NCBI GenBank assembly: GCA_016192135.1
Contig: JACPUR010000013.1
Span: 213,175-277,174, forward strand
Direction of reading: 5' to 3'
Length of the DNA: 64,000 nucleotides
From: Candidatus Tectomicrobia bacterium
Lineage (GTDB): Bacteria; UBA8248
The notes under the pieces are model-generated. The model was not told the origin of the DNA, searched no databases, and worked only from the letters and a program-made list of their open reading frames with translations. This document shows, piece after piece, positions 29,665-48,520 of this stretch (its first letter is position 1; each line of letters opens with the position of its first letter). A program made the translations under genes and the position numbers.

Positions 29665-31509
29665 TCAAGACGCGGCCATGGCGCGGCGCCTGGCCGCGGT
29701 AGCCTCTCGATCCACCTGGCCGGTCCCGTCCAGGATCACCCCATACACCTCCGCCGCCCGTCCGCGCGAGACCCAGCGTTCCTCCACGTCATAGCGGACC
29801 TTCTCGGCCGGACGCTCCCAGGGCGGGCCGTACCCTCCGCCGCCCGTGCAGTAGGAGGCCACCGTCTCGCCCGGCTCCAGGATGATGTCGGCGCAGGCAG
29901 GCAGCTCCACCAGTTCTCCGCTCCTTTTCCGGCGGTAGTTCCGGGAGGGGACGCCGTCCAGCCCCCCCCGCGTCCCCTGGGCCGGGTGGATGGCGCCGTC
30001 CGAGACGTACGCCACCTCGAGCTTCCCGCCCCCCACGGGGCCGTACTCGGCGAAGCCCGAAGGCGCCCCAACCGTGCGGCCCGCGCCCTCGGTGTCGATC
30101 AGGAGGCGGCGCGTCTTGATCAGGATGGGAAAGTGGAGCTCGTCCAGCTCCACGCTGTCCACGAAGCACATCCCCGAGTTGCCGGCGTGGAGGATGGTCA
30201 GCCAGGCGTCGGTCTTGCCCGCCCCCGCGCCCCCCGTGACCATCAGGAAGAGGTGGTTCACGAAGGGCTCGTTGTTGTTGCGGGGATCGAAGCCCGACAC
30301 GACCCCCATCGAGGCGGGGAAAATGGCCCCGCACTCGGCCAGGCCGATCCCGTCCTGGATCTGGGAGAAAGCGCGCTGGACGGGATTCGTCACCCGGTCG
30401 GCCAGGTTCGTCGTGGCCACGGACATGCTGGTGGGGTGCCTCCCGCCCCCGGCGATCGAGCCTTCCCGGATGTGGACCCGGATGCGCCGGAAGCTCCCCG
30501 AGTTCGTGGGCACGATGTCGTCGATGCTGTTGAAGATGCCGATCATGGCCCCGGTCCGGGCGCAGGCCTCGGAGAGATTCAGGCCGCAGGGCATGGCGTC
30601 CGGGTTGTCGCGCAGGTCCACCTCGATCATGGCCTTCTCGCTGTCCACGCGCACCTTCACCTTGATCGGGACGCCCTCGGGCGGGGTGCCCGGCACCGCG
30701 TCGTGGATGCTCACCGCTTCGGAGTAGCCTGTGGGGAGCTTCCGGATCGCGGAAATCATGATCTTCTCGCTGTAGTCAAACCACTCCTGGGTGAAGGCGT
30801 GCAGCATCTCCCAGCCGTACTCCCGGCCCATCGCCAGCACCTCGCGCTCCCCGATGCGCGCCGCGCCGATCATGGCGAGGTAGTCGCCGTGCCACTGATT
30901 GGGGACGCGGATGCGCATCCGGCAAAGGCGGACGATGTCTTCGATGTCGCGGTAGTCCTCCTGCACCTTGGTGGGAGGAAAGATGAGGGCGCCTTCCTCG
31001 TAAACGTCCCGCGCGTGGCCCATGTAGGTGGTCGGCTGGCCGTTGCCGCAGTCGGCCTGGTGGGCCTTCACCCACACCGTGAAGTGATGGGCGCCGCGTT
31101 CGTCGATGACGGGGACCAAGATGGTGTGGTCCGCCGGATGGGAGCAGCCGTGATAGGGAGAGTTATGCAGGAAGGCGTCTCCCCGCTTGAGGTTCGGGTG
31201 GAGCTCCATCATCGAGCGGGCCATGAGGTCCGCCCCGCTCAAGTGGTGGATGGGGAGCGACTCGGCCCCGGTCAAAAGCTCGCAATCCCGGGTGACGACG
31301 CTGGTCGAAAAGTCCCGCGCCAGGTTCAGCACCCCGGAGCGGCCCGTGCGCAGGAGGGTGTTGGCCATCTTGGTGGTGACGGCCTCGAAGCGCTTGCTCA
31401 GGACGGCCAGGGTGACGGGGTCGAGCCGGGCCTGCTTTTTTCCCCGGGGCGGCGCCTTTCTCGGGGAGCCCGGCCCAGTCCCCCGGCTTCTCCCTGCGGC
31501 TCTGGCCAT
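29665..31509 (-). CDS. hyuB: Hydantoinase B/oxoprolinase family protein
   Basis: This 614-residue protein has the HyuB/N-methylhydantoinase-B pattern: VLSKRFEAVTTKMANTLLRT, HLSGADLMARSMMEL, GDAFLHNSPYHGCSHPADH and later GGGGYGPPWERPAEKV. It acts with HyuA in ATP-dependent opening of a five-membered imide or lactam ring such as hydantoin or 5-oxoproline, or in acetone-type carboxylation. The start at 31509 has AAAGGAGGAAG in front; the frame runs on to 31830 but that part looks non-coding. It has its own extended -10 promoter about 75 bases upstream. Confidence 0.88.
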   Translation of the reverse strand: MARAAGRSRGTGPGSPRKAPPRGKKQARLDPVTLAVLSKRFEAVTTKMANTLLRTGRSGVLNLARDFSTSVVTRDCELLTGAESLPIHHLSGADLMARSMMELHPNLKRGDAFLHNSPYHGCSHPADHTILVPVIDERGAHHFTVWVKAHQADCGNGQPTTYMGHARDVYEEGALIFPPTKVQEDYRDIEDIVRLCRMRIRVPNQWHGDYLAMIGAARIGEREVLAMGREYGWEMLHAFTQEWFDYSEKIMISAIRKLPTGYSEAVSIHDAVPGTPPEGVPIKVKVRVDSEKAMIEVDLRDNPDAMPCGLNLSEACARTGAMIGIFNSIDDIVPTNSGSFRRIRVHIREGSIAGGGRHPTSMSVATTNLADRVTNPVQRAFSQIQDGIGLAECGAIFPASMGVVSGFDPRNNNEPFVNHLFLMVTGGAGAGKTDAWLTILHAGNSGMCFVDSVELDELHFPILIKTRRLLIDTEGAGRTVGAPSGFAEYGPVGGGKLEVAYVSDGAIHPAQGTRGGLDGVPSRNYRRKRSGELVELPACADIILEPGETVASYCTGGGGYGPPWERPAEKVRYDVEERWVSRGRAAEVYGVILDGTGQVDREATAARRRAMAAS

Positions 31510-31848
31510 CCTCTTCCTCCTTTGAGGCTCGGCGCCCTCATCCCAGGGGCCGCCGACGGAACCGAGGTGAAATTTTTTTTGCCTATAACACCGGTGAATA
31601 TCGGTGAAAATCCTTTGAAAATGGACCCTATTTGCCCTCTCAGGCTCCTCCAGGCCAGCCGAAATATCGTGAAATATCCCGGAATTTACCGAACAATCCT
31701 TCCTCGCATCCCGGGCGGCGGCCCTGTTCCTCTGGGCCAGAAGCGGCGGCGCCGGCAGCCGCTCCCATCGGGAAAGATACGCCCTACCCGCCCCCGGCCA
31801 CCTACCGCAATTTCGCCCACCTTCCGGCACGGGCCGCTTTTTCGCTCC
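31510..31848. other. 339-bp spacer between hyuA and hyuB
   Basis: An unusually long gap for a hyuA-hyuB pair. It includes an AT-rich, repeat-bearing segment (31571-31695) that contains a candidate promoter and the palindrome CACCGGTG (31589-31596). TTCACC occurs twice as a direct repeat on the minus strand. No gene is seen. Confidence 0.5.
31582..31610 (-). promoter_or_regulatory. Extended -10 promoter upstream of hyuB
   Basis: On the minus strand TGT-TATAGG (the -10 hexamer at 31582-31587) forms an extended -10, with TTTTCA (31605-31610) 17 bases away as a weak -35. The spacer contains the palindrome CACCGGTG, which could be an operator. Confidence 0.4.
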
Positions 31849-33912
31849 CTAGGGGCGGATCACCAAGTTCCCCGCCCGATTCCGGTGGGCCGACGCCCCC
31901 GGTTCGATGACCACTGTGGTGAAGGGGGACTCGATGACGGCGGGCCCCCGCACCGGGGCGTCCACCTTCAGGCTCCCGAAGAGCGCCACGCGGGTCTTCT
32001 GGCGGCGGCCGTCGAAGTAGGCCATCCGCGAGGGGGCGAGCTCCTTCTCGTAGAGCCCCTCGCGGGCGAGGCGGCCGAGCTGGCCCTTGCGGAGCCGGCA
32101 CCGGGCTGCCGCGCGCCAGCCCACGAACTCCACCTCGGACCCGGGGTCCCGGAAGGCGAAGATCTCCTCATGGATGCCGTCGAAGGCCTCGCGCGCCCGC
32201 TGGATGTCCTTCGGCGACTTGAACCGCCCTTTCTCCAGCGGGACATCAATCTCCCAGATCTGGTGCCGGTAGCGGGCCTCGGCGTAGAAATCGATCGCGT
32301 GATCCACCGCGCCCCGGCCGGGGCCCTTGATGAACGCCCGGCACTTTTCCTCCAGGGAGCGCAGCGCCGCGTTCACGCCCTCGAAGTCGAACTTGCCGGT
32401 GACCGTATAGAACAAGGAGCGGTAATCCGCCTGCAGGTCGGACATGAGGGCGCCCGCGGCCGATAGCGCGGCCCCGAGGTGAGGGATGATCACCTGCCTG
32501 CAGCCCAGGCGCCGGGCGATGGCCACGGAATTGAGCCCGGCGGCGCCGCCCCCTCCTATCAGGACCGCCTCCCGGGGATCGATCCCCTGGTGGATGGTGA
32601 TCTGCTCGATGGCCCCGACCATGTTCTCGGTGGCGAGCCGCAGGATGGCGTCCGCCGCCTTCTCCAGCGAGAGCCTGAGCGGCCGGGCCACGTGCGCCTC
32701 GATGGCCCTGGCCGCGAGCCCCGCATCGAGCTGCATCGTCCCGCCCAGGAAGAAGAAGGGATCGATGTGGCCCAGGACGAGCGAGGCGTCCGTCACCGTG
32801 GGCAGCTCTCCCCCCTTCCCGTAGCAGGCCGGCCCCGGCACCGCCCCGGCGCTCTGGGGGCCGACATGGAGGAGCCCGCCCTCGTCCACCCAAGCGATGC
32901 TCCCTCCTCCCGCCCCAATGCTCTTCACGTCCACCGAGGGGAAGCCCAGGATGTGGCCCCGGTAGCGCTGGCCCAGCCAGGTCTCGGGCGTCATGGGGAT
33001 CACCCCCCGCCTCACCAGGCTCACGTCGTAGGTGGTGCCGCCGGTATCCGCCACGATGGCCGTCTCGGCCCGGGCGTCGAGCCGCGCGAAATGGCGCCCG
33101 GCGATGGGGGCCATCGAGGGGCCCGAACCCACGGAGTGGATGGGCGCCTTGGCCAGCTCGCCGGCGTCCATCACGCCGCCCTTGGAGGTCAGCATGAGGA
33201 GGCGGCCGCGGAAGCCCTTTTCCCGGAGCCTCTCCTCGAGGCCGCCGATGTAGCGGGACATGAGAGGCTTCAGGGAGGCGTCGATGCAGGCGGAGGAAGC
33301 CCGCCGGTACTCCCGGAGCATGGGGTTGAGCGCATGGGAGAGGGTGTGGGGGACTTCCGGAAGACGCTCGCCCAGGAGTTCCCCTATCCGGACCTCGTGC
33401 GCCGGATTGACGGTGGACCAGAGCAGGCACACCGCCACCGCTTCCACCTCGATCTCCCGCAGCCGGGAGATGATGGAAACCACCTCCTTCTCGTCCAGAG
33501 GCTCGTGCACCGTTCCATCCGCCCCGATGCGCTCGGGCACCTCGAAGGTGAGGGCGCGGGGGATGTAGGGCTTCGGGAATGGAACGAGGAAGTTGAAAGG
33601 CTCGAGCCTGCCCCCCTCCCGGAGCACCAGGATATCGGGGTGTCCCTTCGTGGTGAGGAAGGCCGTCTTTGCGGTGCTTCCGGTGACGATGGCGTTCGTG
33701 GCGTGGGTGGTGCCGTGGATGAACAGCTCGCCGGCGTCGAGAAGCTCCTCGACGGTCGTGGAGAAGGACTCGGCGGCAGCGGCCACGGCGGCCAGGATGC
33801 CCTCTGCCGGCTGGTGGGGGGTCGTCGGGGCCTTGAACATGTGGAGGGCGCCCGCGTCGTCTTCGAGCACCAGGTCGGTGAAGGTGCCGCCGGTGTCCAC
33901 GGCAAACCGCAT
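31849..33912 (-). CDS. hyuA: Hydantoinase/oxoprolinase family protein A
   Basis: This 687-residue ATP-binding protein opens with MRFAVDTGGTFTDLVLED, the actin-like phosphate-1 motif of HyuA. GTTHATNAIVTGSTAKTAFL follows, then ADTGGTTYDVSLVRRG (second phosphate motif) and VDVKSIGAGGGSIAWVDEGG. Length is normal for the family. RBS GGAGGGAGAGGG lies just upstream. Its partner HyuB is encoded downstream on the same strand. The pair probably cleaves a cyclic imide or lactam with ATP; the exact substrate cannot be read. Confidence 0.9.
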   Translation of the reverse strand: MRFAVDTGGTFTDLVLEDDAGALHMFKAPTTPHQPAEGILAAVAAAAESFSTTVEELLDAGELFIHGTTHATNAIVTGSTAKTAFLTTKGHPDILVLREGGRLEPFNFLVPFPKPYIPRALTFEVPERIGADGTVHEPLDEKEVVSIISRLREIEVEAVAVCLLWSTVNPAHEVRIGELLGERLPEVPHTLSHALNPMLREYRRASSACIDASLKPLMSRYIGGLEERLREKGFRGRLLMLTSKGGVMDAGELAKAPIHSVGSGPSMAPIAGRHFARLDARAETAIVADTGGTTYDVSLVRRGVIPMTPETWLGQRYRGHILGFPSVDVKSIGAGGGSIAWVDEGGLLHVGPQSAGAVPGPACYGKGGELPTVTDASLVLGHIDPFFFLGGTMQLDAGLAARAIEAHVARPLRLSLEKAADAILRLATENMVGAIEQITIHQGIDPREAVLIGGGGAAGLNSVAIARRLGCRQVIIPHLGAALSAAGALMSDLQADYRSLFYTVTGKFDFEGVNAALRSLEEKCRAFIKGPGRGAVDHAIDFYAEARYRHQIWEIDVPLEKGRFKSPKDIQRAREAFDGIHEEIFAFRDPGSEVEFVGWRAAARCRLRKGQLGRLAREGLYEKELAPSRMAYFDGRRQKTRVALFGSLKVDAPVRGPAVIESPFTTVVIEPGASAHRNRAGNLVIRP

Positions 33913-34415: not shown

Positions 34416-34919
34416 TCAATTTCTCGCCATCTGCTGAAGAACATAGGGGATGAGCCCCCCGGACGCCAGCAGCTCCTGCATGAATGCGGGGATGGGCATG
34501 GCCTCGAAGACTTCCCCCGTGGCTTCGTTTTCGACCCGGCCGCCGTCCAGGTCTACCCTTAGGCGGCTGCCCGTGCGTATCGACCCGGCAGGATAGTCAG
34601 ACTCCAGGAGAGGAAGGCCCCGGTTGAAGGCATTGCGGTAGAATATCTGGCCGAAAGAGCGCGCAATCACGCAACTCACGCCCAGGGCCTTGATGGCGAT
34701 GGGGGCATGCTCGCGGGAGCTGCCGCAGCCGAAGTTGTGACCCGCCACGATGATGTCGCCCGGCTGAATCTTCGAGGCGAGGGATGGGTCCAGGCCCTCG
34801 AAGCAATAGGGAGCCAAGCGGTGGGGGTCGAAGGTAATCAGATATTTGGCGGGGATGATCACATCCGTGTCGATATGCTCTCCGAGCACCCAGGCGCGCC
34901 CCGTCAGAACATTCGCCAC
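34416..34919 (-). CDS. Aconitase/isopropylmalate isomerase-type small subunit (LeuD-like), copy 1
   Basis: This 167-residue swivel-domain protein begins with LTGRAWVLGEHIDTDVIIPA and contains GDIIVAGHNFGCGSSREHAP, the LeuD/HacB motif with the conserved GSSREHAP loop. GLPLLESD follows. It pairs with the large subunit encoded 11 bases upstream to make a [4Fe-4S] hydro-lyase. A GTG start at 34919 follows GAGGGGC. The IDTDVI segment is typical of 3-isopropylmalate, homoaconitate or 2,3-dimethylmalate dehydratases; the true substrate is unknown. Confidence 0.88.
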   Translation of the reverse strand: MANVLTGRAWVLGEHIDTDVIIPAKYLITFDPHRLAPYCFEGLDPSLASKIQPGDIIVAGHNFGCGSSREHAPIAIKALGVSCVIARSFGQIFYRNAFNRGLPLLESDYPAGSIRTGSRLRVDLDGGRVENEATGEVFEAMPIPAFMQELLASGGLIPYVLQQMARN

Positions 34920-34930
34920 GCCCGCGCCCC

Positions 34931-36190
34931 TCACAGCTCGTCCGGCGAGCCGAGCCGACCCAGCACCGCGGTCGCGGCGGCGACGGAAGGATTCACGAGA
35001 TAGATCTCGGCCTTCGCCGAACCCTGGCGGCCGACAAAGTTCCGGTTTGAGGTGGAAACCGAACGCATCCCGTCGGCCAGTACCCCCATATGCGCTCCGA
35101 TGCAGGGGCCGCAAGTGGGGGGGCTGAAGATTCCTCCCGCGTCCAGGATGATTTCGGCAATCCCTTCCCGCAGGCACTGGCGGTAAATCTGGGTGGTGCT
35201 GGGAATGACGATCAGCCGCACCCGCTTGGCGACCTTCCGGCCCTTCAGGATCTCCGCCGCGGCCCGCATGTCCGTCATCCAGCCGTTCGTGCAGGAGCCG
35301 ATGTAGACCTGATCCACGGCGACCCCGCCCACTTCCGACAGGAACTTCGTGTTGCTGGGAAGGTGCGGCATGGCGACCACAGGCTCAAGGCCGGAGACGT
35401 CCAGCTCATGGAGGGCGGCGTAGTCGGCATCCGGGTCCCCGTAAACGGGAGTGAATGGGCGCCGGGCGCGGGGCCGGACGTATTCCAATGTCTTCTCGTC
35501 CGGCTCGATGATGCCGTTCGCCGCTCCCGCCTCGACCGCCATGTTCGGAAGGGCGAACCGCTCCTCCATGGGAAGCCGGGCGATCGCTTCTCCAGCGAAT
35601 TCCATGGCTTTCCCCTGGGCGCCGTCCACGCCGAATTTCCCGATCGTAAAGAGGATGAGGTCCTTGCCGGTCACCCACCGGGGAAGTTCGCCCTTGTAAA
35701 TGTAGCGGATGGTTTCGGGCACGCGGAGCCACGTGCGGCCCGTGATGAGAATGGCCGCAATGTCCGTGCTGCCCATGCCGGTGGCGAAAGCGCCGACGCC
35801 GCCCCCCGTGCAGGCGTGGGAGTTGCCCCCGGCGAGAAGCTCGCCGGGAAGCACCAGACCCTCTTCCACGGCCAGGCAATTGTGGATGCCGGCGTTTCCC
35901 CCCTCGTAGAAGCGCTCGACCCCCATGCGCTCGCAGAACTCGCGCATCTTGCCGATGGTGTTGGCCACCTCGATGCTCTTGCTCGGCGCGTTCACCATCG
36001 CCGAGACGAAGAAGCGGTCCGGGTCGAATATCCTCCGGACGCCGTGCTCCTCCAGGATCTGAAAGGTGATGGGCCCTCCCAGATCGTCCGCGTAAGTCTG
36101 GTCGACGCGGACGGAAAGCGTCTCCATGGGGCGTACCCGGTCGCGGTCCGCGCGGCCGGCCAGGATCTTCTCCGTGAGGGTCATGCCCAT
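34931..36190 (-). CDS. Aconitase/isopropylmalate isomerase-type large subunit (LeuC-like), copy 1
   Basis: This 419-residue protein starts MGMTLTEKILAGRADRDRVR and carries the iron-sulfur ligands in YIGSCTNGWMTDM and FSPPTCGPCIGAHMG. GELLAGGNSHACTGGGVGAF corresponds to the GDSHT region, with Asp changed to Asn. It dehydrates and rehydrates a hydroxy-acid such as isopropylmalate, homocitrate or dimethylmalate. Start 36190 is chosen over 36211 because GGTGGAG is in place and the same MGMTLTEKI opening is found in copy 2. It is followed directly by its small subunit. Confidence 0.88.
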   Translation of the reverse strand: MGMTLTEKILAGRADRDRVRPMETLSVRVDQTYADDLGGPITFQILEEHGVRRIFDPDRFFVSAMVNAPSKSIEVANTIGKMREFCERMGVERFYEGGNAGIHNCLAVEEGLVLPGELLAGGNSHACTGGGVGAFATGMGSTDIAAILITGRTWLRVPETIRYIYKGELPRWVTGKDLILFTIGKFGVDGAQGKAMEFAGEAIARLPMEERFALPNMAVEAGAANGIIEPDEKTLEYVRPRARRPFTPVYGDPDADYAALHELDVSGLEPVVAMPHLPSNTKFLSEVGGVAVDQVYIGSCTNGWMTDMRAAAEILKGRKVAKRVRLIVIPSTTQIYRQCLREGIAEIILDAGGIFSPPTCGPCIGAHMGVLADGMRSVSTSNRNFVGRQGSAKAEIYLVNPSVAAATAVLGRLGSPDEL

Positions 36191-36235
36191 CGGCGACTCC
36201 ACCCGCCGCATCCGCGGCGAGGATGCGGCCCCCGG

Positions 36236-37339
36236 CTACGCGGGGCCGTTTTCCTGAAGCAAGCTCACCCGCTCAGGAGGCACAAAGAGACTCACTGTGC
36301 TTTCAGGCTGATACCTGAGCCAGGAGCCGTTTTCGATTACGGTGAGGGTTTCCTCCCCCATCTTGACGCGGTAGACGCTATGCGTGCCGAGGAAGTCCGC
36401 CTTGACCACCTCAGCGGGCCACACGTTTCGCCGCCCCCCCGCGGAGTTTCCGGCCGGCTCCAAAAAGATATTCTCGGGCCGCAGGCTGAGCTCCACTTCG
36501 CTCCCCGGCGCCGGCGCGCCCGGCGCGGCGCAACGCAACTCCATGCCTTCCGCCAGGCGGACCACTCCCTCGCCGTCTTTCACCCATTCGAGGCGGCCCC
36601 GAAGAAAATTCGTGGCGCCGGTGAACTCCGCCACGAAGCGGTTGGACGGCCGGTTGTAGAGGGAAACCGGGTCGGCCAGCTGCATGATGCGGCCGGCGTT
36701 CATGACCGCGATGCGGTCGCCCAGCACCACGGCCTCGGCCTGATCGTGCGTCACATAGAGGGCCGTGACGCCCGTCTTCCGCTGTATCTCCTTGAGCTCG
36801 AACCGAAGACTCGCCCGGAGCTTGGCGTCGAGATTGGAGAGAGGCTCGTCCAGAAGAAGGATCCCCGGCTCGTTCGCCAGGCTCCGGGCAAGGGCCACCC
36901 GCTGCATCTGCCCGCCGCTCAGGGCCGTCGCCGGGCGCTCTTCCATGCCGGAGAGACCCACGAGAGCCAGCTTCTCCTTCACCTTCCGGCGGATCCCCTC
37001 CCGGGGATGGCGCTTCACGACGAGGCCGTAGGCCACGTTCTCGAAAACCGTCATGTGGGGCCAGATGGCATAAGACTGGAAGACCATCCCCAGGTTCCGC
37101 CGCTCGGGCGGGACCATGATGCCTTGCGCCGCATCCGTCATGGGAGCGCCGCCGATCAGGATGCGGCCCGCATCGGGTTCCTCGAACCCCGCCACGCAGC
37201 GAAGGGTCGTGGTCTTGCCGCAGCCGCTCGGGCCGAGCAGGACGAGGAATTCCCCTTGGGAGACCCTGAAGCTCACGCCGTCAACGGCGAGGACGGCCTC
37301 GCCGAAACGCTTTCTCAGCCCTTCGATGGCAAGTTCCAT
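36236..37339 (-). CDS. Fe3+/spermidine-type ABC importer, ATPase (PotA/FbpC-like)
   Basis: This 367-residue ATPase has Walker A LLGPSGCGKTTTLRCVAGFE, signature LSGGQMQRVALARSL, Walker B GILLLDEPLSNLDAKLR and H-loop YVTHDQAEAV. After about residue 240 there is a TOBE regulatory domain (ELSLRPENIFLEPAG). GMVFQSYAIWPHMTVFENV is the Q-loop. It energises the permease encoded two genes upstream and lies between the binding protein and LeuC-like copy 1. Confidence 0.92.
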   Translation of the reverse strand: MELAIEGLRKRFGEAVLAVDGVSFRVSQGEFLVLLGPSGCGKTTTLRCVAGFEEPDAGRILIGGAPMTDAAQGIMVPPERRNLGMVFQSYAIWPHMTVFENVAYGLVVKRHPREGIRRKVKEKLALVGLSGMEERPATALSGGQMQRVALARSLANEPGILLLDEPLSNLDAKLRASLRFELKEIQRKTGVTALYVTHDQAEAVVLGDRIAVMNAGRIMQLADPVSLYNRPSNRFVAEFTGATNFLRGRLEWVKDGEGVVRLAEGMELRCAAPGAPAPGSEVELSLRPENIFLEPAGNSAGGRRNVWPAEVVKADFLGTHSVYRVKMGEETLTVIENGSWLRYQPESTVSLFVPPERVSLLQENGPA

Positions 37340-37369
37340 GTCAGGCGGGCCGCCTCATTCGCTTCGCTC

Positions 37370-38413
37370 CTACGGCTTGTAGCCGAAGATTTGGTTCCAG
37401 CGCTTGGTATAGGGAGCGCGCAGCTTGACGTAGTCGTCCTCCTTGGCCGACCAAATCTTCACCTTCTTCGGCGCCGTCGCGGGCGGGTCGATGTCGGTGC
37501 GGGCGGAGAGGCCTCCGACCTGCTTCGTCCAGACCTCCTGTCCCTCGCGCGAGAGGGTCCAGTTCTGCCAAAGCTTCGCGCCGTTGGGATTCTTGCCCAC
37601 GGTGGTGATGCCATTGTTGAAGAGGATCATGACCACGCCCTCTTCGGGATAAACGAACTTTACGGGGGCGCCCTTCTTGATGTCGGCCACGGAGACCACG
37701 TCCAGGGCCACGGCCGCGGGCGTCTCGCCGTTGATGAGGGTCTTGCCGATGCCGCCGGCGCTCGTGAAGAAGCGCGGCTTCTGCGCGGCGAGCTTTTGCC
37801 AGTAGCTGTCGCTGTTGTTGCCGAGGACCTGGTACTGGAACAGCGCCGTCATCCAAGGGGTGCCGCCCAATTCCGCCGGAACGAGCCCCAGCTGCCCCTT
37901 GAAGCGCGGATGGACCAAATCCATCCAGTTCTTGGGCGGATCCTTCACCAGGACGGGATTGTAGGCGATGAGATAGAGATAGGGATAAGTGGGGTAGACC
38001 TCGCCGGCGATCTTGGTGTCCGCGGGATATTTGGCGTCCGTGGGCGGGGTGTGCTTGCCGATGATCCCCGCCTTCATCTCCGCGCGCATGAGCCCGCGGT
38101 CGGACATCTCGATCACGTCGGCCACGAGTTTTCCGGCCGAGTGCTCGGTCAAGATCTTCCGGTGGAGCGCGCCTCCGCCCAGCCGGACGACGTCCACCCT
38201 GACTCCGGGAAACCGCTTGCCGAAATTCGTCTCCATGATCTTGGTGAGGGAAAGGATGTTCGCGGTGTAGACCACGACCTTGCCCTCTTTCTTGGCGTCG
38301 CGGATGAGCGCCTCCCCGCCGAATTCCTCAACCGGCGAAGCGGCGAATGCCGGGCCGCCCATGAACGCCGCGATCACTCCCAGAACGACAAGCCATCCAT
38401 TCATCCGGGTCAT
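37370..38413 (-). CDS. Fe3+/spermidine-type ABC importer, substrate-binding protein
   Basis: This 347-residue protein has a signal peptide (MTRMNGWLVVLGVIAAFMGG, cleavage near AFAASP), then EALIRDAKKEGKVVVYTANI and LVHPRFKGQLGLVPAELGGT, as in family-1 iron/organic-ligand binding proteins. Start 38413 is set by GGAGG eight bases upstream. The conserved tyrosine pair of ferric-binding proteins is not evident, so an organic anion is a fair guess given the hydro-lyase genes on both sides. Confidence 0.87.
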   Translation of the reverse strand: MTRMNGWLVVLGVIAAFMGGPAFAASPVEEFGGEALIRDAKKEGKVVVYTANILSLTKIMETNFGKRFPGVRVDVVRLGGGALHRKILTEHSAGKLVADVIEMSDRGLMRAEMKAGIIGKHTPPTDAKYPADTKIAGEVYPTYPYLYLIAYNPVLVKDPPKNWMDLVHPRFKGQLGLVPAELGGTPWMTALFQYQVLGNNSDSYWQKLAAQKPRFFTSAGGIGKTLINGETPAAVALDVVSVADIKKGAPVKFVYPEEGVVMILFNNGITTVGKNPNGAKLWQNWTLSREGQEVWTKQVGGLSARTDIDPPATAPKKVKIWSAKEDDYVKLRAPYTKRWNQIFGYKP

Positions 38414-38458
38414 TTTTGTGCCCTCCTTCACCTTTGGACGAGCCTTCCTCTGCGCCGG

Positions 38459-40204
38459 TCAAGCCGCCGCCTCGGAGCGCATCACGTAGCGGCGCGCGGC
38501 GATCACCACCACGACGAGAATCACCGTTTGAATAAGGCTCAAGACCGCGGTCGCTCCGTACTCGGCCGACTCCCACTGATTGTAAATCTGGACGGAGAGA
38601 ACAATGCTGTCGGTCGTGTACAGGAATATGGAGGAGCCCAGCTCGCGCACCGCCAGGATAAAGAGCAGGATCACGCTGGAGAGGATGCCGGGCCGGGCGA
38701 GAGGGATGATCACCCGGCGGAGAGTCTGCCAGAAGCCCCCTCCGTGGATGCGGCTGGATTCTTCGAGCTCCTTGTGGATCTGAAGGAGGTTCACCCCCGC
38801 CGCGCGCACGCCATCGGGGATGAAGCGTGCGACATAGGCCAAGGCGAGAATCCAAATGGTCCCATAAATCGGCACCGGAAAGGATATCCACGCCCACAGA
38901 TACGCCACGCCGATCACCAAGCCGGGCACCGCGATCGGAATCATGCTCAGGTAATCCAGGCTCTTCCTTCCCGGGAGATCGGTTCTATGGACGCAGTAGG
39001 CCGTGAGGAAGCACAAGATGGAACCCACGATGGCCGCCAAGGCGCCCATCTGAAGGCTGTTCCAAATCGACGCGAAAGCCTGCTCGTGGGTCCAGAGGAA
39101 GCGGAAATGCTGCAGGGTGAGCACATTGAAATCGAACACCGACCAGAAGCTGGGAAAGAACATGAAGCTCCTGAGGCTCAGAAGAAGCAGCGCGAAGTAG
39201 GGAAGCACGACCGTGACCACGAGATAGATTGCGATCAAGGCGACGACGGCGGGCTTCCATCTCCGCAGCCTGAACATCCGCGGCTGGCTCGCCTTTCCGG
39301 TCACCGTGATGAAGCTCCTCCGGCCGATGACCTGTCTCTGAAGAAAAACACCCACGAGGGTGAGCGCGATCAGCAGGACGCTCACGGAGGCGGCCTTCTC
39401 GTAGGCCGGGGGATTCCCCGTGACCAGGTTGAAAAGGTAGGTCGTCAGAAAGTGGATGTTGGCGGGCACCGCTATCGTCGCCGGAACGGCGAACAGGCCC
39501 AGCGTGATCACGAAGACCAAGAGCGCCGCCGAGAGGATGGGATGAATGATGAGCGGAAACGTCACCCGCCGCACCGTCTCCCACGCGTTCGCCCCGCTGA
39601 TCGCGGAGGCCTCCTCCAGAACCGGATCCATCCGCCTGAGGGCGGGCGTCAGGAACATGTAGGTATAGGGGGCGTAATAGACGCCGAGGACGAACCAGAT
39701 GCCGGTGAAAGAGTAGATGTTGAGGCGGAAGTCCAGCCCCAGGTCCTTGAAGATGAGGTTCAGGATCCCCGCCCGGTCGCTGGCCAGGGTGGCCCAAGCC
39801 ATGGAGGCGATCAGGGGCGAGACGAACAGCGGCATGATGGCGATGATCTCGATCAACCCCTTGCGTCTGATGTCGGTCCGGGCGACCACCCAGGCGAAGA
39901 AAAGGCCTATCAGCATGGCCAAAACCGCTCCCCCGGCGCATCCCACAAGGCTGTTGTATGTCGCCTTGTAGAGCGAAGCCGTCCCGTACATCTCAATGTA
40001 GTTGCCAAAAGTCAGATGGCTGAAGGCCTGCCCCAAACGGGTAGGCTCGACCGTCGAGAGAGAGCCCAGCAGCAGGATGCCGATGGGGTAGGGAATGAAG
40101 AAGAAAAGGAGGAGGAATATCGGCGCCACGGCCGCCAAGGCGAAGAGGCGGCGGCGCGTTCGATGTGAGGTGACGCCCGCCTGCTGGGGAATGGTCGATT
40201 CCAT
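38459..40204 (-). CDS. Fe3+/spermidine-type ABC importer, fused two-domain permease
   Basis: This 581-residue membrane protein holds two permease halves, as in FbpB/ThiP. The first half has VGCAGGAVLAMLIGLFFAWV and EEASAISGANAWETVRRVTF (EAA coupling loop). The second has GALAAIVGSILCFLTAYCVH and EESSRIHGGGFWQTLRRVII (second EAA loop). About twelve hydrophobic helices are expected. It is encoded between LeuD-like copy 2 and its binding protein with 15- and 45-base gaps, firmly within the operon. Confidence 0.92.
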   Translation of the reverse strand: MESTIPQQAGVTSHRTRRRLFALAAVAPIFLLLFFFIPYPIGILLLGSLSTVEPTRLGQAFSHLTFGNYIEMYGTASLYKATYNSLVGCAGGAVLAMLIGLFFAWVVARTDIRRKGLIEIIAIMPLFVSPLIASMAWATLASDRAGILNLIFKDLGLDFRLNIYSFTGIWFVLGVYYAPYTYMFLTPALRRMDPVLEEASAISGANAWETVRRVTFPLIIHPILSAALLVFVITLGLFAVPATIAVPANIHFLTTYLFNLVTGNPPAYEKAASVSVLLIALTLVGVFLQRQVIGRRSFITVTGKASQPRMFRLRRWKPAVVALIAIYLVVTVVLPYFALLLLSLRSFMFFPSFWSVFDFNVLTLQHFRFLWTHEQAFASIWNSLQMGALAAIVGSILCFLTAYCVHRTDLPGRKSLDYLSMIPIAVPGLVIGVAYLWAWISFPVPIYGTIWILALAYVARFIPDGVRAAGVNLLQIHKELEESSRIHGGGFWQTLRRVIIPLARPGILSSVILLFILAVRELGSSIFLYTTDSIVLSVQIYNQWESAEYGATAVLSLIQTVILVVVVIAARRYVMRSEAAA

Positions 40205-40219
40205 CGTCCCCGTTCCTCT

Positions 40220-40750
40220 TCAGGAAGCCTGCATCTTCTCCAGGCGCTTCTTCAGGGCGGGAAGGCTCCCTCCCAGCGCGATGATCTCCCGGAGCTCGGC
40301 GGGCAGCGGCTCCGCTTCGTGGACGAGGCCCTGGGTGAGGTTTTCGATCTTGCCCCTTTCAAAATCCACCCTAATCCGGTCACCGTCCGCCACCTTCCCG
40401 CCGATGCCGGCACAGAAGGGGAGCGAGGGAAGGCCCGCCGCGACGAGCATCCGGTAGGTGAAGTGGGGCACGCTCTCCGCAATCAGCCCCAATCCCAGGC
40501 CCGTCATGCCCAAGAGCCCATAGATATGAGGGTTGCCCTGCCCGAACCGCTTCCCGGCCACCACGATGTCGCCCGGCTTCGCGCGCTGCGGAAAGTCCGG
40601 GATGAGGTTCGTGAACACATGCTGCTTGAGGTATTCGGGGTCCGACACGCGCACGCCCTGCACGAACACCTTGGCGAACTCGATGATGTCGTCGTCCAGG
40701 GAAAGATTGTCCCCGAGCTTCCAGCAGCGGCCTTCCAGCACCCAGTTCAC
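40220..40750 (-). CDS. Aconitase-type small subunit (LeuD-like), copy 2, divergent
   Basis: This 176-residue protein shows the swivel-domain pattern in altered form: WKLGDNLSLDDDIIEFAKVF for the N-terminal DTD region, then KPGDIVVAGKRFGQGNPHIY, where G-x-G-x-SSREH is replaced by GQGNPHIY. GLPSLPFCAG follows. The loss of the Ser-Arg-Glu loop is striking, since in LeuD that Arg binds the substrate carboxylate and the Ser is catalytic. The GTG start at 40750 follows GAGGGAGAGG. It sits ten bases after LeuC-like copy 2. Confidence 0.8.
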   Translation of the reverse strand: MNWVLEGRCWKLGDNLSLDDDIIEFAKVFVQGVRVSDPEYLKQHVFTNLIPDFPQRAKPGDIVVAGKRFGQGNPHIYGLLGMTGLGLGLIAESVPHFTYRMLVAAGLPSLPFCAGIGGKVADGDRIRVDFERGKIENLTQGLVHEAEPLPAELREIIALGGSLPALKKRLEKMQAS

Positions 40751-40760
40751 GGCCTCTCCC

Positions 40761-42020
40761 TCAGCCCAGGAACTCGCGCGGATCCGTGATTTTTCCCGTC
40801 ACCGCGGAGGCGGCCACCGTCGCCGCGCTCGAGAGGTAAATCTCCGCCTTGCGGCTGCCCATCCGGCCCACGTCGTTGCGGGTGACGGTGGCGATGCAGG
40901 TCTCGCCGTCCGCCAGAGGCCCTCCCTTGCCGATGGCGCATGGGCCGCATCCGGGCGGGCCGACCAGCGCACCCGCTTCCACGAAAATCTGCATGAGCCC
41001 TTCCCGGATGCAGCGGTCGGCGACCTCGCGGCTGCCCGGCGTCACGATCATCCGGACTCCCGGGGCGACCCGGCGGCCCTTGAGGATGGCGGCGGCCTCC
41101 GCCATGTCCTCGTACTGGTCCGCCGCGCATGAGCCCAGATAGGCCGCGTGGACCGGGATTCCGAGCGTCTCCCGCAGGGGAACCACCTGCTCCGGCCGCG
41201 GGGGAATGGCCACCATCGGCTCAAGCCGGGAAAGGTCGAATCGATGAACGGCCGCGTATTCGGCGTCCAGGTCGCTGGCGAGAGGCTCATGCACCCCCAA
41301 GCCGCGCTCCTCCATCCAGGCGGAGGCCTTGGAATCGAAGGGAACGATAGCGCTCTTGGCGCCCACCTCGATCGGCAGGTTGCAGAGCTTCACCCGGGCG
41401 TCCACGCCGAGGTCCCCGATGGCGCTCCCCCCGTACTCGAACATCCGGTAGTCGGCCTCGTCGGGCCCGATCTCCTTGATGATGAGCGCCGCCGCATCGC
41501 GGACGGTCACCCCGGGCGGGAATTTCCCTTCGAGCTCGACCCGGATCGTTTCCGGCACGCGGAACCAGTGGCTCCCCGTGGCGAGCACGGCGGGGAACTC
41601 GAACACCAGGGAGAGGCCGAGGCACCCGAGCGCGCCGTAATTCGTCACGTGGATGTCGTAGGCCAGGACGAGCATGCCCGGCTTCACGAGCCCCAGCTCC
41701 ATCGGGAAGACGTGGCCCTGGCCCCGCCCCACATCGAAGAAGTGGCGGACGCCCCAGCGCTTCACGATGTCGCGGATGTTCTTCGCCCGGTTGGCGATGG
41801 CGACGGTCTGAGGGATGGTATCGTGGTCGAAGCACACCAGTACGCGGCCGGGGTCCCAAGGGCGCTCGACGCCCACTTGCAGAAGCTGCCGATCGGCTTC
41901 GACCACGTAAAGATCGTGGATGGTGGCCAGATCGGGCTCGGGATAGACGATGTCGCCCGGCTTCACGACGGAAAGGCCGGAGGCCCGCGCCATGATCTTC
42001 TCGGTGAGGGTCATGCCCAT
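40761..42020 (-). CDS. Aconitase-type large subunit (LeuC-like), copy 2, divergent
   Basis: This 419-residue protein, the same length as copy 1, starts MGMTLTEKIMARASGLSVVK and keeps the cluster cysteines in YLGSCAADQYEDM and VGPPGCGPCAIGKGG. The GDSHT-x-x-xG region reads LAYDIHVTNYGALGCLGLSL, so the Ser/Thr are absent. ADGETCIATVTRNDVGRMGS resembles the ER-NF-GR-G block near the end. The enzyme probably acts on a different hydroxy-acid from copy 1. It is first in the seven-gene operon, and its promoter region is unusually rich in palindromes. Confidence 0.82.
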   Translation of the reverse strand: MGMTLTEKIMARASGLSVVKPGDIVYPEPDLATIHDLYVVEADRQLLQVGVERPWDPGRVLVCFDHDTIPQTVAIANRAKNIRDIVKRWGVRHFFDVGRGQGHVFPMELGLVKPGMLVLAYDIHVTNYGALGCLGLSLVFEFPAVLATGSHWFRVPETIRVELEGKFPPGVTVRDAAALIIKEIGPDEADYRMFEYGGSAIGDLGVDARVKLCNLPIEVGAKSAIVPFDSKASAWMEERGLGVHEPLASDLDAEYAAVHRFDLSRLEPMVAIPPRPEQVVPLRETLGIPVHAAYLGSCAADQYEDMAEAAAILKGRRVAPGVRMIVTPGSREVADRCIREGLMQIFVEAGALVGPPGCGPCAIGKGGPLADGETCIATVTRNDVGRMGSRKAEIYLSSAATVAASAVTGKITDPREFLG

Positions 42021-42984: not shown

Positions 42985-43641
42985 TCAATCCGTCGTGAAC
43001 TTCTTCGCGAGCAGCGGGAAAAGGCCGGCCATCGCCTCCCCTTTCGCCGCGCGCTCTTTCACCTCCTTCTCGATGGCCCGGATCCGCTCGACTTGGCGCT
43101 TCACCTCGGCGAGCCGGGTCAGCGGAACGGCCGCCACCCCATCGATGTCGGCGACGATGATGTCGCCCGGCTCCACGCGCACCCCGCAGCAGGTGACGGG
43201 AGTGTCCATGGCCACCACCTCCAGGCGCCGCGGGAAGGCCAGGCTCCAAACCGACTTGCAGAACACCGGGAACTTCAGGTCGCGGATGTCCTCCACGTCC
43301 CGCGTCGCCCCGTCGATCACGGCGCCCACCGCCCCGCGCCGGGAGCACACCCCGCTGGAACCTCCCCCCCAGGCGGCGAGCGGGGAGCCTGCCGCGTCCA
43401 CGACCATGACGGCCCCTTTGGGGATGACGTCCACCACGTCGTAGAGGCTGTAGGGAGCCTTCACCCCTGGGGTGCGGACGGGCGCGAAGACCATTGTGGC
43501 CGCCGGGCCCGCGAACCGCGGATATGTCTCCGGCACGACGGGGCGGGGCCCTTCCATGATGAGGTTCAGCCCGAGCGCCGTCGCGGCGTCCGCCAGCGTG
43601 GCCGTGGCGACGCCCGAAAAGAAATCCGCATCCACGCTCAT
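42985..43641 (-). CDS. RraA-like / HMG aldolase family protein
   Basis: This 218-residue protein has the RraA/4-hydroxy-4-methyl-2-oxoglutarate aldolase pattern: TATLADAATALG, YDVVDVIPKGAVMVVDAAG, GVCSRRGAVGAVIDGATRDV (the G-x-x-GVV-DG-x-RD motif carrying the catalytic Arg-Asp) and VEPGDIIVADIDGVAAVP. This family cleaves 2-oxo-4-hydroxy acids to pyruvate, or decarboxylates oxaloacetate. It is last in an operon with M20, DUF4387, AtuA and amidase genes, where it may handle a keto-acid product. Confidence 0.85.
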   Translation of the reverse strand: MSVDADFFSGVATATLADAATALGLNLIMEGPRPVVPETYPRFAGPAATMVFAPVRTPGVKAPYSLYDVVDVIPKGAVMVVDAAGSPLAAWGGGSSGVCSRRGAVGAVIDGATRDVEDIRDLKFPVFCKSVWSLAFPRRLEVVAMDTPVTCCGVRVEPGDIIVADIDGVAAVPLTRLAEVKRQVERIRAIEKEVKERAAKGEAMAGLFPLLAKKFTTD

Positions 43642-43711
43642 CGGAGCCTCCTCCCGCCTTGGCGCACCCCGCCCCTGGATGCCGCCCCCGTTTGTCCTTC
43701 CTGCACGGCGA

Positions 43712-45097
43712 TCAGTAGGTCAATCCGCCGAATCCCTCGAAGAAGCGCGCGAGGAACTTCTCCGATCGCAGCAGGCCCTCCACCTGGCAGTACTCATTCG
43801 CCGCGTGCTTGCGCATGGCATTGCAGGGAAGCCCCCCGATCCAGGGGATGCCCAATTCTTCGGTCCAGAGCGCAACCGGCATCCCCGCGGGATGGACGGG
43901 CCAGACCTCGGGGTCCGCCCCCATCTCCTTGTGGGCCCGAAGGAAGCACGCGATGAGAGGGTGTTCCGGCGAGGTGGCGCCGCCGGCATAGTGGTTGTTC
44001 ACGACGAACTCGATGTCCCCGAAACCGCCCTCCTCGAGAATCCGGCGCACGTTCTCGATGCGCTCGTCCGGGTCCTCGCCCGGCAGAAAGCGCATGTTCA
44101 CCACCGCCTGGGCCTCGGAGGGGATGCTCACCTTGACGGATTTCCCCTCCCCGATGAACCCCGCCTGGAGGCCGATCAGGGTGAACTCGGGGCGGAAGAG
44201 GTGCGCGCGCACCGCCGCATGGAAGTCGTCCTGACGAAACCGCTTCACCCCCAGGCTCCGCCTCAGCCGTTCGGGATCCATGCGCTCGGAGAGCCGGCGG
44301 CAGAGCCTCTCTTGGACCGGGCTCGGCATCCAGCCCTCTCCGCGCTCGTAGATCTCCTCGAGGCGCTTTTCAAGATAGGCGACCGCCTCGACCAAGCGGT
44401 CGGCGGGGTTTCCGATCCAGTTGCTGTTCAGGGCGTGGATCTCGTTGCCGATGGGGCCGCCCCACTCGCCCGGCCGGCAGAAGAGCCTTCCCATGAGGTT
44501 GCCCTTCAGGCCGAGAGGGACGATGGGGGTGCCGTCGGTCTGGGCCATCGGGCAGAGCCAGTAGGCGGCGTTCGCCCGTTTCATCTTTTCCTTGTAGCGC
44601 GGAAAGAAGTCCTTGAGCCCGCCGCTTCCCAGCTCCGAGGCCTCGTGGACGAACATGAGATTGAGCGGGAGCTTTTGGCCCGCGGCGCGGGCGGCGTACA
44701 CGGTGTTCATGACGCCGGCGATGCCCGTCTTCATGTCCTCTGCGCCCCGGCCGACGATGCAGCGGCCCAGGCCGTCGAGCTGGTGTATCCGCGGCTCGAA
44801 GGGCGGGTTCAGCCAGCCCGGCTCCTCCGCCGGGGTCACGTCGTAGAGGCCGTGGCAGAGCAGCGTCCGCGGCGCGCCTTCGTCAATCAGGCCGAAGACG
44901 ACGGGGAACTCGGCGGTCTCGACCACCTCGGCCGTCCCCCCCACCTCGCGGATTTCCCCGGCGAGCATCTCCGCCATCTCGCGGTTGCCCCAGTCCAGGG
45001 CCGACACGCTCGGCTGCCGGATGTAGTCCAGAAGGCGGCGGACGTGGCTGTCTTCGAAATCCCTTTCGATTTGAGCGACTACGCGATCGACTTTCAT
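43712..45097 (-). CDS. M20-family deacylase/peptidase (ArgE/DapE-like)
   Basis: This 461-residue protein has the M20 motif set: LLCHGLYDVTPAEEPGWLNP, GRGAEDMKTGIAGVM, VHEASELGSGGLKD (acidic pair) and a C-terminal RKHAANEYCQVEG with the last ligand. It resembles ArgE/DapE-type deacylases. Start 45097 is set by GAGGGAGGAG. It begins 12 bases after the DUF4387 gene stop. It would cleave an N-acyl bond in a pathway that starts with the amidase or AtuA-type proteins. Confidence 0.85.
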   Translation of the reverse strand: MKVDRVVAQIERDFEDSHVRRLLDYIRQPSVSALDWGNREMAEMLAGEIREVGGTAEVVETAEFPVVFGLIDEGAPRTLLCHGLYDVTPAEEPGWLNPPFEPRIHQLDGLGRCIVGRGAEDMKTGIAGVMNTVYAARAAGQKLPLNLMFVHEASELGSGGLKDFFPRYKEKMKRANAAYWLCPMAQTDGTPIVPLGLKGNLMGRLFCRPGEWGGPIGNEIHALNSNWIGNPADRLVEAVAYLEKRLEEIYERGEGWMPSPVQERLCRRLSERMDPERLRRSLGVKRFRQDDFHAAVRAHLFRPEFTLIGLQAGFIGEGKSVKVSIPSEAQAVVNMRFLPGEDPDERIENVRRILEEGGFGDIEFVVNNHYAGGATSPEHPLIACFLRAHKEMGADPEVWPVHPAGMPVALWTEELGIPWIGGLPCNAMRKHAANEYCQVEGLLRSEKFLARFFEGFGGLTY

Positions 45098-45108
45098 CCG
45101 CTCCTCCC

Positions 45109-45420
45109 TCAAGGGATCATCAAGCCGAGCAGCGGGCCGTGCTGCTGGGCGCCGTAGACATCGCGGTCGCCCGGCGCGCCCGAGGTGGGCCCGGTTCGCG
45201 GTATGGTGATCTTGATGGCGCGGGCCGCGTCGAACTGGATGATCCGGACCTCCTCGGCCTCGACGCCATAGAGCGCGGCCACGGCGCCGGGCGTCAGGGC
45301 CTCGCTGCCGGCCACCCGCCTGTAGGTCCCCTCATCGGCGAAGAGCAGATCCAGGGTTATATAGAGGGGCCCCGCGTTCTTGCTCCGCAGGACTTCCGCC
45401 AGGTCGTAGAGGCGATCCAA
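45109..45420 (-). CDS. DUF4387 (AtuA-associated) protein
   Basis: This 103-residue protein reads DRLYDLAEVLRSKNAGPLYI, then TLDLLFADEGTYRRVAGSEA and AIKITIPRTGPTSGAPGDRD, the pattern of DUF4387 proteins that almost always follow AtuA-family genes. A TTG start at 45420 is assumed, nine bases after the AtuA stop with a G-rich upstream stretch; a GTG overlapping the upstream gene is possible. AtuA and this protein are thought to form two parts of one enzyme or a complex, sometimes fused in other genomes. The reaction is not established. Confidence 0.8.
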   Translation of the reverse strand: MDRLYDLAEVLRSKNAGPLYITLDLLFADEGTYRRVAGSEALTPGAVAALYGVEAEEVRIIQFDAARAIKITIPRTGPTSGAPGDRDVYGAQQHGPLLGLMIP

Positions 45421-45428
45421 GCCCCCCC

Positions 45429-46793
45429 CTAACCCACCCGCTCGAACTCGACCGCGAAGGGAGCGCCCGCGTCCTCGAGCTCGATGAGATGGTAGATGTG
45501 GAACTCGTAGACCGGGCCGCCCCGGAAATCCGAGGGCGAAAAGGGAAAGGCCAGGTTGCCGGCCGTCGCCTTGCGCCCTTCGAAGCCGCAATGAAGGTAG
45601 GTGCTGCGCGTGAGGGACAGAACGGCGTCGGCCGTGGCTTGGTCTTTGGCGATGGCCTCCATCACGAGCCCCACCTCATGCGCCGTCCTCGGACCCTCGG
45701 GGCCCGGGCGGCCGAGCACGCCGTCGCGGCCGTAGTAGACGAAGCGCAGCTCATAGTCCTCGGGCGCGAGGCTGCCGCGCAGCATGTCCGCCACGGTTTC
45801 CCGCACCCGCTCCTCCACCTCGTCGAGCCGCCGCAGCAGGCTCGGGTCGGTCATCCCCGCCACCGCGATGGTGCGCCAGCCGCGCAAGCGGACGCCCTCG
45901 AGTTTGATCGTGGGCCGCTGAGCGGCGACGAAGCGGCCGCCGCTCACCCGCACCCGCCGGTCGTCGAGCTGTTCGAACTCGGTCGCCTTCAGGTCCACCA
46001 TGCCCTCAGGCTCGTAGAAGAGGTAGGGATCGGGCTGCTCGTACATCATGTGCGCGGCCACGGAGTTGGGCGTCAGCCGCTTGCCCATGTTCATGGGTTC
46101 GAGCTCGAAGTGGTCCTTCCGGAGCGTGCCCAGAATGCAATCGTTCGCCCCGATGGGAAGGGCGCATTGCGCGCCGCACTCGATGATCTTCGACATGTGG
46201 AAGGCGAGCCCCAGGTCGTAACCCCGCATGGCGGCGAACGCGGTGTAGATCGCCGTGTCGCAGGAGCGGCCCGCCAGGACGACGTCCGCCCCGCCCTCCA
46301 ATGCGCGGATATACGGCGTCAGGCCCATCTGGCCCACGATGCGCACGCTCTCATCCACGGCCTCTTCGGTGAGAGCCGGGAGCTTGCCCAGAGAGCGCGT
46401 GCGGCCCTCCCGGATGGCCTTCTTCACGAACTCCTTGTCCATCTCCGAGCGGATGATGGCGAGCCTGAACTTGAGGCCGTCGCGCCTGGCGAGCTGGTGC
46501 ATGACGCCGAGGACGGCATCCACGTGAGGATTGCCTCCCGCCGTTCCCGCCGAGCCGATGAGGTAGGGGATGCCCTTCCGGCGGGCGGCGCGGAGGGAGA
46601 GGCCCAGGTCGCGGACGATCTGCTCGCGCCGGGTGAGCTGCTCGCCGCTGCCCAGATAATAGGGCCCCGCGTCCGTGGAGCCGTTGTCGGCCCCCATGTA
46701 ATGAGGATCGCGCGCGATCCCGTTCTCAAGCGAAGAAACCGGGAACCCATAGCCCAGGTTCCCGCAGACCGAGAGGACACGCAGCTCGTCCAT
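45429..46793 (-). CDS. AtuA-family (DUF1446) protein
   Basis: This 454-residue protein begins LRVLSVCGNLGYGFPVSSLE with IARDPHYMGADNGSTDAGPY and LIGSAGTAGGNPHVDAVLGV, the AtuA/DUF1446 signature. DVVLAGRSCDTAIYTAFAAM and KIIECGAQCALPIGANDCIL follow. AtuA is required for acyclic terpene use in Pseudomonas, but relatives are found beside amidases and hydrolases in many pathways, and the reaction is not known. It is followed by its usual partner DUF4387 and preceded by the amidase gene. Confidence 0.85.
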   Translation of the reverse strand: MDELRVLSVCGNLGYGFPVSSLENGIARDPHYMGADNGSTDAGPYYLGSGEQLTRREQIVRDLGLSLRAARRKGIPYLIGSAGTAGGNPHVDAVLGVMHQLARRDGLKFRLAIIRSEMDKEFVKKAIREGRTRSLGKLPALTEEAVDESVRIVGQMGLTPYIRALEGGADVVLAGRSCDTAIYTAFAAMRGYDLGLAFHMSKIIECGAQCALPIGANDCILGTLRKDHFELEPMNMGKRLTPNSVAAHMMYEQPDPYLFYEPEGMVDLKATEFEQLDDRRVRVSGGRFVAAQRPTIKLEGVRLRGWRTIAVAGMTDPSLLRRLDEVEERVRETVADMLRGSLAPEDYELRFVYYGRDGVLGRPGPEGPRTAHEVGLVMEAIAKDQATADAVLSLTRSTYLHCGFEGRKATAGNLAFPFSPSDFRGGPVYEFHIYHLIELEDAGAPFAVEFERVG

Positions 46794-48314: not shown

Positions 48315-48420
48315 CGAGGTCCTCCATTCCCCGCCGCGGCAATTCGCACCGGCTCCCGCCTTCGCGCGGCAAACCGCGGCGGCTCGCCCGTCCTGAACAT
48401 GGCACGGCTTTCGTCGGGAA

Positions 48421-48433
48421 TGATATTCTAGCA
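48421..48433. promoter_or_regulatory. Overlapping divergent extended -10 promoters
   Basis: On the minus strand TGC-TAGAAT (hexamer 48425-48430) lies about 110 bases before the amidase start. On the plus strand TGA-TATTCT (48421-48429) lies about 90 bases before the lyase start. The two overlap almost fully, so only one can be occupied at a time. Neither has a clear -35. Confidence 0.4.
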
Positions 48434-48520
48434 TCATTCATTTTTCACGGCGCCGTCGGCGGATTCCGGATGGCCTGGGCGGGAAACCCTCAGGAGTTCT
48501 CTTGGGTGAAGGAGCCGAAA

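Follow-up and report, generated by a model that had tools for sequence, protein, structure and literature searches.

Two aconitase-family enzyme pairs with altered active sites flank one ABC importer in a putative catabolic operon of a Candidatus Tectomicrobia bacterium

We analyzed a 64,000-nucleotide stretch of contig JACPUR010000013.1 (assembly GCA_016192135.1, positions 213,175 to 277,174 of the forward strand), here called the window, from a Candidatus Tectomicrobia bacterium. The assembly comprises 3.92 Mb, and the named assemblies closest to it are from 'Candidatus Tectomicrobia' and Nitrospinota. A run of seven open reading frames (ORFs), from 42020 to 34416, encodes two pairs of aconitase-family subunits, LeuC1-LeuD1 and LeuC2-LeuD2, on either side of a single ATP-binding cassette (ABC) importer. 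An earlier reading made from the sequence alone (hereafter the sequence-only reading) had placed all seven genes on one strand, and all seven ORFs do lie on the minus strand with the boundaries it gave. Along that strand, the genes are:

leuC1, 40761..42020, minus strand: large subunit, aconitase family
leuD1, 40220..40750, minus strand: small subunit without the Ser-Ser-Arg (SSR) motif; reads GQGNPHIYG
permease, 38459..40204, minus strand: fused, 581 amino acids; ABC importer of the iron/phosphonate/sugar-phosphate type
binding protein, 37370..38413, minus strand: periplasmic; predicted structure closest to MctA (Mg-citrate) and sugar-phosphate binders
importer ATPase, 36236..37339, minus strand: ABC_tran and TOBE_2
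leuC2, 34931..36211, minus strand: large subunit; cluster cysteines present
leuD2, 34416..34919, minus strand: small subunit with an intact SSREHA motif; a GTG start at 34919 is assumed

The gaps between these genes measure 10, 15, 45, 30, 48 and 11 bases, depending on the start codons chosen, and the tight run described in the sequence-only reading therefore holds, with a range of 10-48 rather than 10-45 bases. The genome-context search that it had proposed recovered the same seven genes in identical order in a second genome of the same genus (G002), with proteins about 73-82% identical, and because this order was kept despite flanks that are rearranged relative to the window, it reflects more than chance. 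In another genome (G001), the leuC1-leuD1-permease part is present and is followed by the end of the contig. From the short gaps and the conserved order, we infer that the seven genes are co-transcribed as a single operon; a scan for promoters and terminators was uninformative (0 promoters; 11 terminator-like sites versus 5.8 expected). The sequence-only reading knew of no described pathway with this layout, and a search of the literature library used here found no paper that matched the layout, and none for dimethylmaleate hydratase, HyuAB with LeuCD, CmlA or DUF4387. However, the combination of LeuCD with an importer is not unique, as other LeuCD pairs are annotated beside transporter genes on Azospirillum and Roseomonas plasmids.

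Both large subunits match Pfam Aconitase (PF00330) and are 38% identical to each other, and LeuD2 matches Aconitase_C (PF00694). LeuD1 matched no Pfam family and scored under the cut-off of the LeuD/DmdB model (E 1.4e-23), and its relationship to the small subunit in PDB 3vba is clear (E 1.5e-34). The importer genes belong to the ABC_tran plus TOBE and SBP_bac_6/8 families and include the fused 581-residue permease. The earlier claim of two different aconitase-family pairs with one importer is supported. LeuC1, LeuC2 and LeuD2 scored above subfamily cut-offs and LeuD1 below them, with both large subunits passing subfamily models NF001614 and TIGR01343, and all four subunits missed the equivalog cut-offs of TIGR02083, TIGR02084 and NF040615. 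Elsewhere in the genome, contig C3 carries a separate LeuC-LeuD pair and contig C14 a long aconitase; together with the missed equivalog cut-offs, this ruled out a leucine or citrate-cycle role. Because another LeuCD and an aconitase are present elsewhere, both pairs are probably catabolic, in agreement with the catabolic rather than biosynthetic role proposed by the sequence-only reading.

The active sites were compared by aligning 58 large and 47 small subunits of the collected loci to the Methanocaldococcus isopropylmalate/citramalate isomerase and homoaconitase (PDB 4nqy, 4kp2, 3vba, 2pkp), which have in common with the window's pairs the two-subunit aconitase-family fold, three cluster cysteines and a similar length. 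In mitochondrial aconitase, the Ser642 alkoxide serves as general base and the leaving hydroxyl takes its proton from His101; all members of the superfamily except aconitase X (AcnX) have most of the 20 active-site residues in common (PMC8184944). The three 4Fe-4S cluster cysteines are present in both large subunits and all relatives. However, in comparison with the Methanocaldococcus enzymes, each pair lacks a different set of catalytic residues. In LeuD1, Ser642, Ser643 and Arg644 are replaced by Asn, Pro and His, a change seen in 21/21 relatives, whereas SSR is found in 26/26 of the other small subunits; its partner LeuC1 retains Asp100, His101, His147, Asp165 and His167 and lacks Ser166, Thr359, Asn360 and Asn446. 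In LeuC2, Asp100 is replaced by Met, His101 by Val, and His147 and Asp165 by Asn in both complete copies, and a partial copy in a further genome (G014) shows the same altered motifs, as judged by eye; LeuC2 retains Ser166, Thr359 and Asn446, and LeuD2 keeps the SSR motif of the Methanocaldococcus enzymes. The catabolic gene context of the window is a further difference from those enzymes. Sequencing error was ruled out as the source of the odd residues, since all 21 LeuD1 relatives carry the same changes and those of LeuC2 recur in independent assemblies. The view of the sequence-only reading that both pairs are ordinary aconitase/isopropylmalate-isomerase-like enzymes is thus not supported. 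With residue roles transferred from aconitase by alignment, the losses would leave LeuC1D1 without its serine base and LeuC2D2 altered on the hydroxyl side of the site.

The sequence-only reading, accurate on the positions of the genes it covered, stopped short of the adjacent RraA, AtuA and DUF4387 genes (42985-46793), which are the most informative on chemistry. The genes surrounding the seven-gene run are:

RraA-like aldolase/decarboxylase, 42985..43641, minus strand: tied to leuC2D2 in four genomes
M20-family amidohydrolase, 43712..45112, minus strand
DUF4387, 45109..45540, minus strand: related to subunit B of citramalate lyase (9erq chain B); start position uncertain
AtuA, 45429..46793, minus strand: related to subunit A of citramalate lyase (9erq chain A; E 1.2e-111)
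amidase, 46950..48437, minus strand: tied to leuC2D2 in the genomes holding leuC2D2
hyuA-hyuB pair, 29665..33912, minus strand: downstream of leuD2 after a gap of 503 bases

Apart from a leuD2 stub at the G001 contig end, G002 and G014 were the only genomes with close relatives of LeuC2D2 in a survey of the phylum that covered 18 genomes and thus tests this rarity weakly; in trees, LeuC2 sits on a long branch within the SSR-type large subunits. The RraA-AtuA-DUF4387-M20-amidase genes are tied to LeuC2D2 in 4/4 genomes (window, G001, G002 and G014). LeuC2D2 was seen beside the importer only in the window's genus; in G014 it has no importer in the stretch read, and the two pairs lie on different contigs. 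AtuA, which is single-copy in the window's genome, and the adjacent DUF4387 match chains A and B of PDB 9erq/9evf over nearly their full length (DUF4387, E 7.1e-25), and these structures are, by PDB title, subunits A and B of citramalate lyase (CmlAB). The window differs from CmlAB in its hydro-lyase partner, which is an altered LeuCD pair. DUF1446 is the older name of the AtuA domain. In the mesaconase cluster of E. coli O157:H7, a DUF1446 gene adjoins that of methylaspartate ammonia-lyase, and the fate of citramalate was reported to be unclear; the mesaconase of clostridial and enterobacterial methylaspartate clusters is of the class I fumarase type (PMC4682846).

Several other genes lie nearby. 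A plus-strand gene at 48470-49408 encodes an isocitrate-lyase/phosphoenolpyruvate (PEP)-mutase-family protein, which among solved structures is most closely related to petal death protein and methylisocitrate lyase and is the third C-C lyase in the neighbourhood. A 2,3-dimethylmalate pathway combining LeuCD with this gene was considered and kept as a lead only, as the gene was not seen beside the cluster in G002 or G014. A fused HyuA-HyuB of 1273 residues is encoded at 55215-59036 on the minus strand; HyuA-family matches in the genome number seven, including two fragments that may be parts of a single gene. Finally, leuC1 has as its divergent neighbour, in the window as in G001, G002 and G014, a gene (42283-42960, plus strand) for a 225-residue protein without a Pfam match, which is about 70% identical across them and may be a partner or regulator.

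Scanning GTDB genomes with an alignment of LeuD1 yielded 21 loci, 9 of the Nitrospinota/Tectomicrobia type and 12 from Alphaproteobacteria, other proteobacteria or unnamed bacteria, and a single, fully supported clade unites the LeuC1 relatives. In the 12-locus set, an RraA gene lies directly upstream of leuC1 in 9, encoding a 33-38% relative of the window's RraA; importer genes, of the SBP_bac_8/6 type where typed, are present in 10; and HyuA/HyuB genes, which are not close orthologues of the window's HyuAB, occur within 10 kb in 10. Five of these genomes hold 8-34 hyuA copies each, for which about 0.04-0.13 would be expected per 20 kb. No LeuC2D2 lies near the proteobacterial LeuC1D1, and in Nitrospinota of another genus neither an importer nor LeuC2D2 stands alongside leuC1D1. 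Nitrospinota loci with enough flank carry a second AtuA-DUF4387 pair about 4 kb from leuC1D1. The clade is rare, with strong matches (E 1e-49 or better) in 3 of 385 alphaproteobacterial genomes, one of which is the query's own source genome, and weaker matches in four more. At one locus from this other genus (L040, 11118-18634), the AtuA-DUF4387 pair adjoins an arylmalonate-decarboxylase-family gene and an acyl-CoA-synthetase-like gene adjoins leuC1.

The structural model of the binding protein, built from an 18-row alignment with a predicted local distance difference test score (pLDDT) of 86, is nearest to MctA with Mg-citrate (PDB 7f6e series; Z 33.7, but 19% identity), then to sugar-phosphate binders (31.6) and then to ferric binders (30.6 or less). 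Among the MctA ligand residues S26, D28, S79, S164, T199 and Y221, only S79 is kept in a pairwise alignment, a comparison that infers a numbering offset of 2 and takes the ligand-site role from mutants in PDB titles. The segment aligning with the metal-tyrosine region, where ferric-binding protein FbpA has paired tyrosines as iron ligands, holds zero tyrosines, as placed without a direct FbpA alignment. The model thus suggests that a small organic anion is a likelier ligand than iron, which agrees with the organic-acid importer of the sequence-only reading.

Based on the genes present, their order and conservation, the lost residues, the partner genes and the relationship to 9erq, we propose, with a probability of about 0.45, that the locus is a merged catabolic operon in which two modules share one importer and a branched C5-C6 acid would be cut to pyruvate and a short acid. 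The substrates, the direction and order of the steps, and co-transcription are conjectural parts of this proposal. The importer would bring in a small organic anion, which would most likely be a branched C5-C6 hydroxy- or unsaturated di- or tricarboxylate or an amide-type conjugate of one. LeuC2D2, an iron-sulfur hydro-lyase with an altered hydroxyl-side site and an intact serine base, would make or rearrange a citramalate-like 2-hydroxy acid, which AtuA-DUF4387, with a predicted activity of the citramalate-lyase type, would split, yielding pyruvate together with acetate or a related acid. As an iron-sulfur hydro-lyase without the serine base and the substrate arginine, LeuC1D1 may act on a related acid that feeds an RraA-type aldolase or decarboxylase, and the M20 protein, the amidase and possibly HyuAB may free the acid from amides or lactams. 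The histories and partners of the two pairs are separate, and it is in the window's genus that the pairs are joined.

Several observations weigh against this proposal. AtuA-DUF4387-M20 is independent of LeuC2D2, as it occurs in several genomes without LeuC2D2 nearby, and 9erq/9evf are known as citramalate lyase by title alone. Nitrospinota loci from the other genus have neither HyuAB nor RraA near leuC1D1. Because only one of the six ligand residues of MctA is present, the ligand does not have to resemble citrate. Furthermore, the activities of LeuC1D1 and LeuC2D2 are putative, and the residue losses could also mean that the enzymes are impaired.

The alternative that survives best, which we nevertheless consider unlikely, is that two independent pathways share a transcript, their genes having been fused in this genus without joint function, one formed by LeuC1D1 and the importer and the other by LeuC2D2 and AtuA-DUF4387. 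The separation of the modules in G014 and in another genus and the fact that LeuC2D2 was seen beside the importer only in the window's genus are consistent with this, but the importer and both pairs are contiguous in G002 despite its rearranged flanks, and genes of the RraA or AtuA-DUF4387 types turn up repeatedly in the vicinity of either kind of pair. The sequence-only reading had instead proposed two successive hydration/dehydration steps on one imported hydroxy-acid, carried out by two ordinary isopropylmalate-isomerase-like enzymes. Although the tight run with one importer and the passing of NF001614 and TIGR01343 by both large subunits fit this idea, it appears improbable given the loss of the base serine and Arg644 from LeuD1 and of Asp100, His101, His147 and Asp165 from LeuC2, and given that the pairs occur apart with different partner genes, on separate contigs in G014 and as proteobacterial LeuC1D1 without LeuC2D2 nearby. 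Subunit mixing, in which LeuC1 and LeuD2 would rebuild a normal active site and the other two subunits would be regulatory, takes account of the complementary losses (LeuC1 has the four residues missing from LeuC2, and LeuD2 has SSR), but is very improbable, as LeuC1D1 occurs in proteobacteria with no LeuC2D2 nearby, LeuC1 also lacks Ser166, Thr359 and Asn446, and each large subunit keeps its own small subunit adjacent. Least credible is an iron importer co-transcribed with iron-sulfur enzymes, for although the fold group includes ferric-binding proteins, the Mg-citrate and sugar-phosphate binders are nearer in structure and the segment aligning with the metal-tyrosine region holds no tyrosine.

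A precedent for aconitase-superfamily dehydratases with changed active sites is AcnX, which includes cis-3-hydroxyproline and phosphomevalonate dehydratases and has no homologue of His101 (PMC8184944, PMC5144071). AcnX differs from the pairs described here in keeping the serine base and in having different cluster ligands, and LeuC1 and LeuC2 did not match the AcnX Pfam families, only PF00330/PF00694 at E <= 0.001. Enzymes of the superfamily other than AcnX have been described as sharing most active-site residues, with serine as the general base (PMC8184944).

Small subunits without the serine are found beyond the LeuC1D1 relatives. A plasmid of Azospirillum ramasamyi encodes a LeuD-like protein with GHPH and no SSR, adjoining an isocitrate-lyase/PEP-mutase-family gene and an ABC importer; this cluster resembles the window's in combining a serine-less LeuD, an importer and a C-C lyase, but its importer is of the branched-chain amino-acid type and no second LeuCD lies within the stretch read. 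Plasmids of two Roseomonas species encode a LeuD-like protein with HHNH, adjoining a tricarboxylate-transporter binding protein. These plasmid pairs of serine-less LeuD-like and aconitase-family proteins (L153, 6709-8537; L149, 7527-9525; L150, 7691-9513) are annotated as 3-isopropylmalate dehydratase or hypothetical protein, and additional serine-less LeuD types were seen in alphaproteobacterial genomes. In a tree of 46 large subunits, a branch supported at 99/96 has 18/18 partners of serine-less small subunits on the same side of it, in a sample gathered by similarity to LeuD1 and with long branches. A further LeuC/LeuD type with GGDSHVCTYG, whose LeuD has VSSRADAA or similar (L087, L090, L092, L094 and L031), occurs in the same family of genomes and forms a separate clade. 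The LeuC partners of all sampled serine-less LeuDs apparently constitute an undescribed subfamily of the aconitase superfamily.

With somewhat more doubt than belief, we read LeuC1D1 as part of an undescribed aconitase branch free of the serine base (NPH, HPH, HNH, PKM or SVH in its place), degradative beside importers and C-C lyases across phyla, and LeuC2D2 as a distinct case in which the other half of the site, on the hydroxyl side, was lost. The serine-less group is the part most worth following. The link between an altered LeuCD and AtuA-DUF4387 offers a testable metabolic setting for the AtuA and DUF4387 families. If true, the serine-less clade, with members both in uncultured lineages and in cultured Azospirillum and Roseomonas, would bring a new catalytic variant to the superfamily and would correct annotations that now point to leucine biosynthesis.

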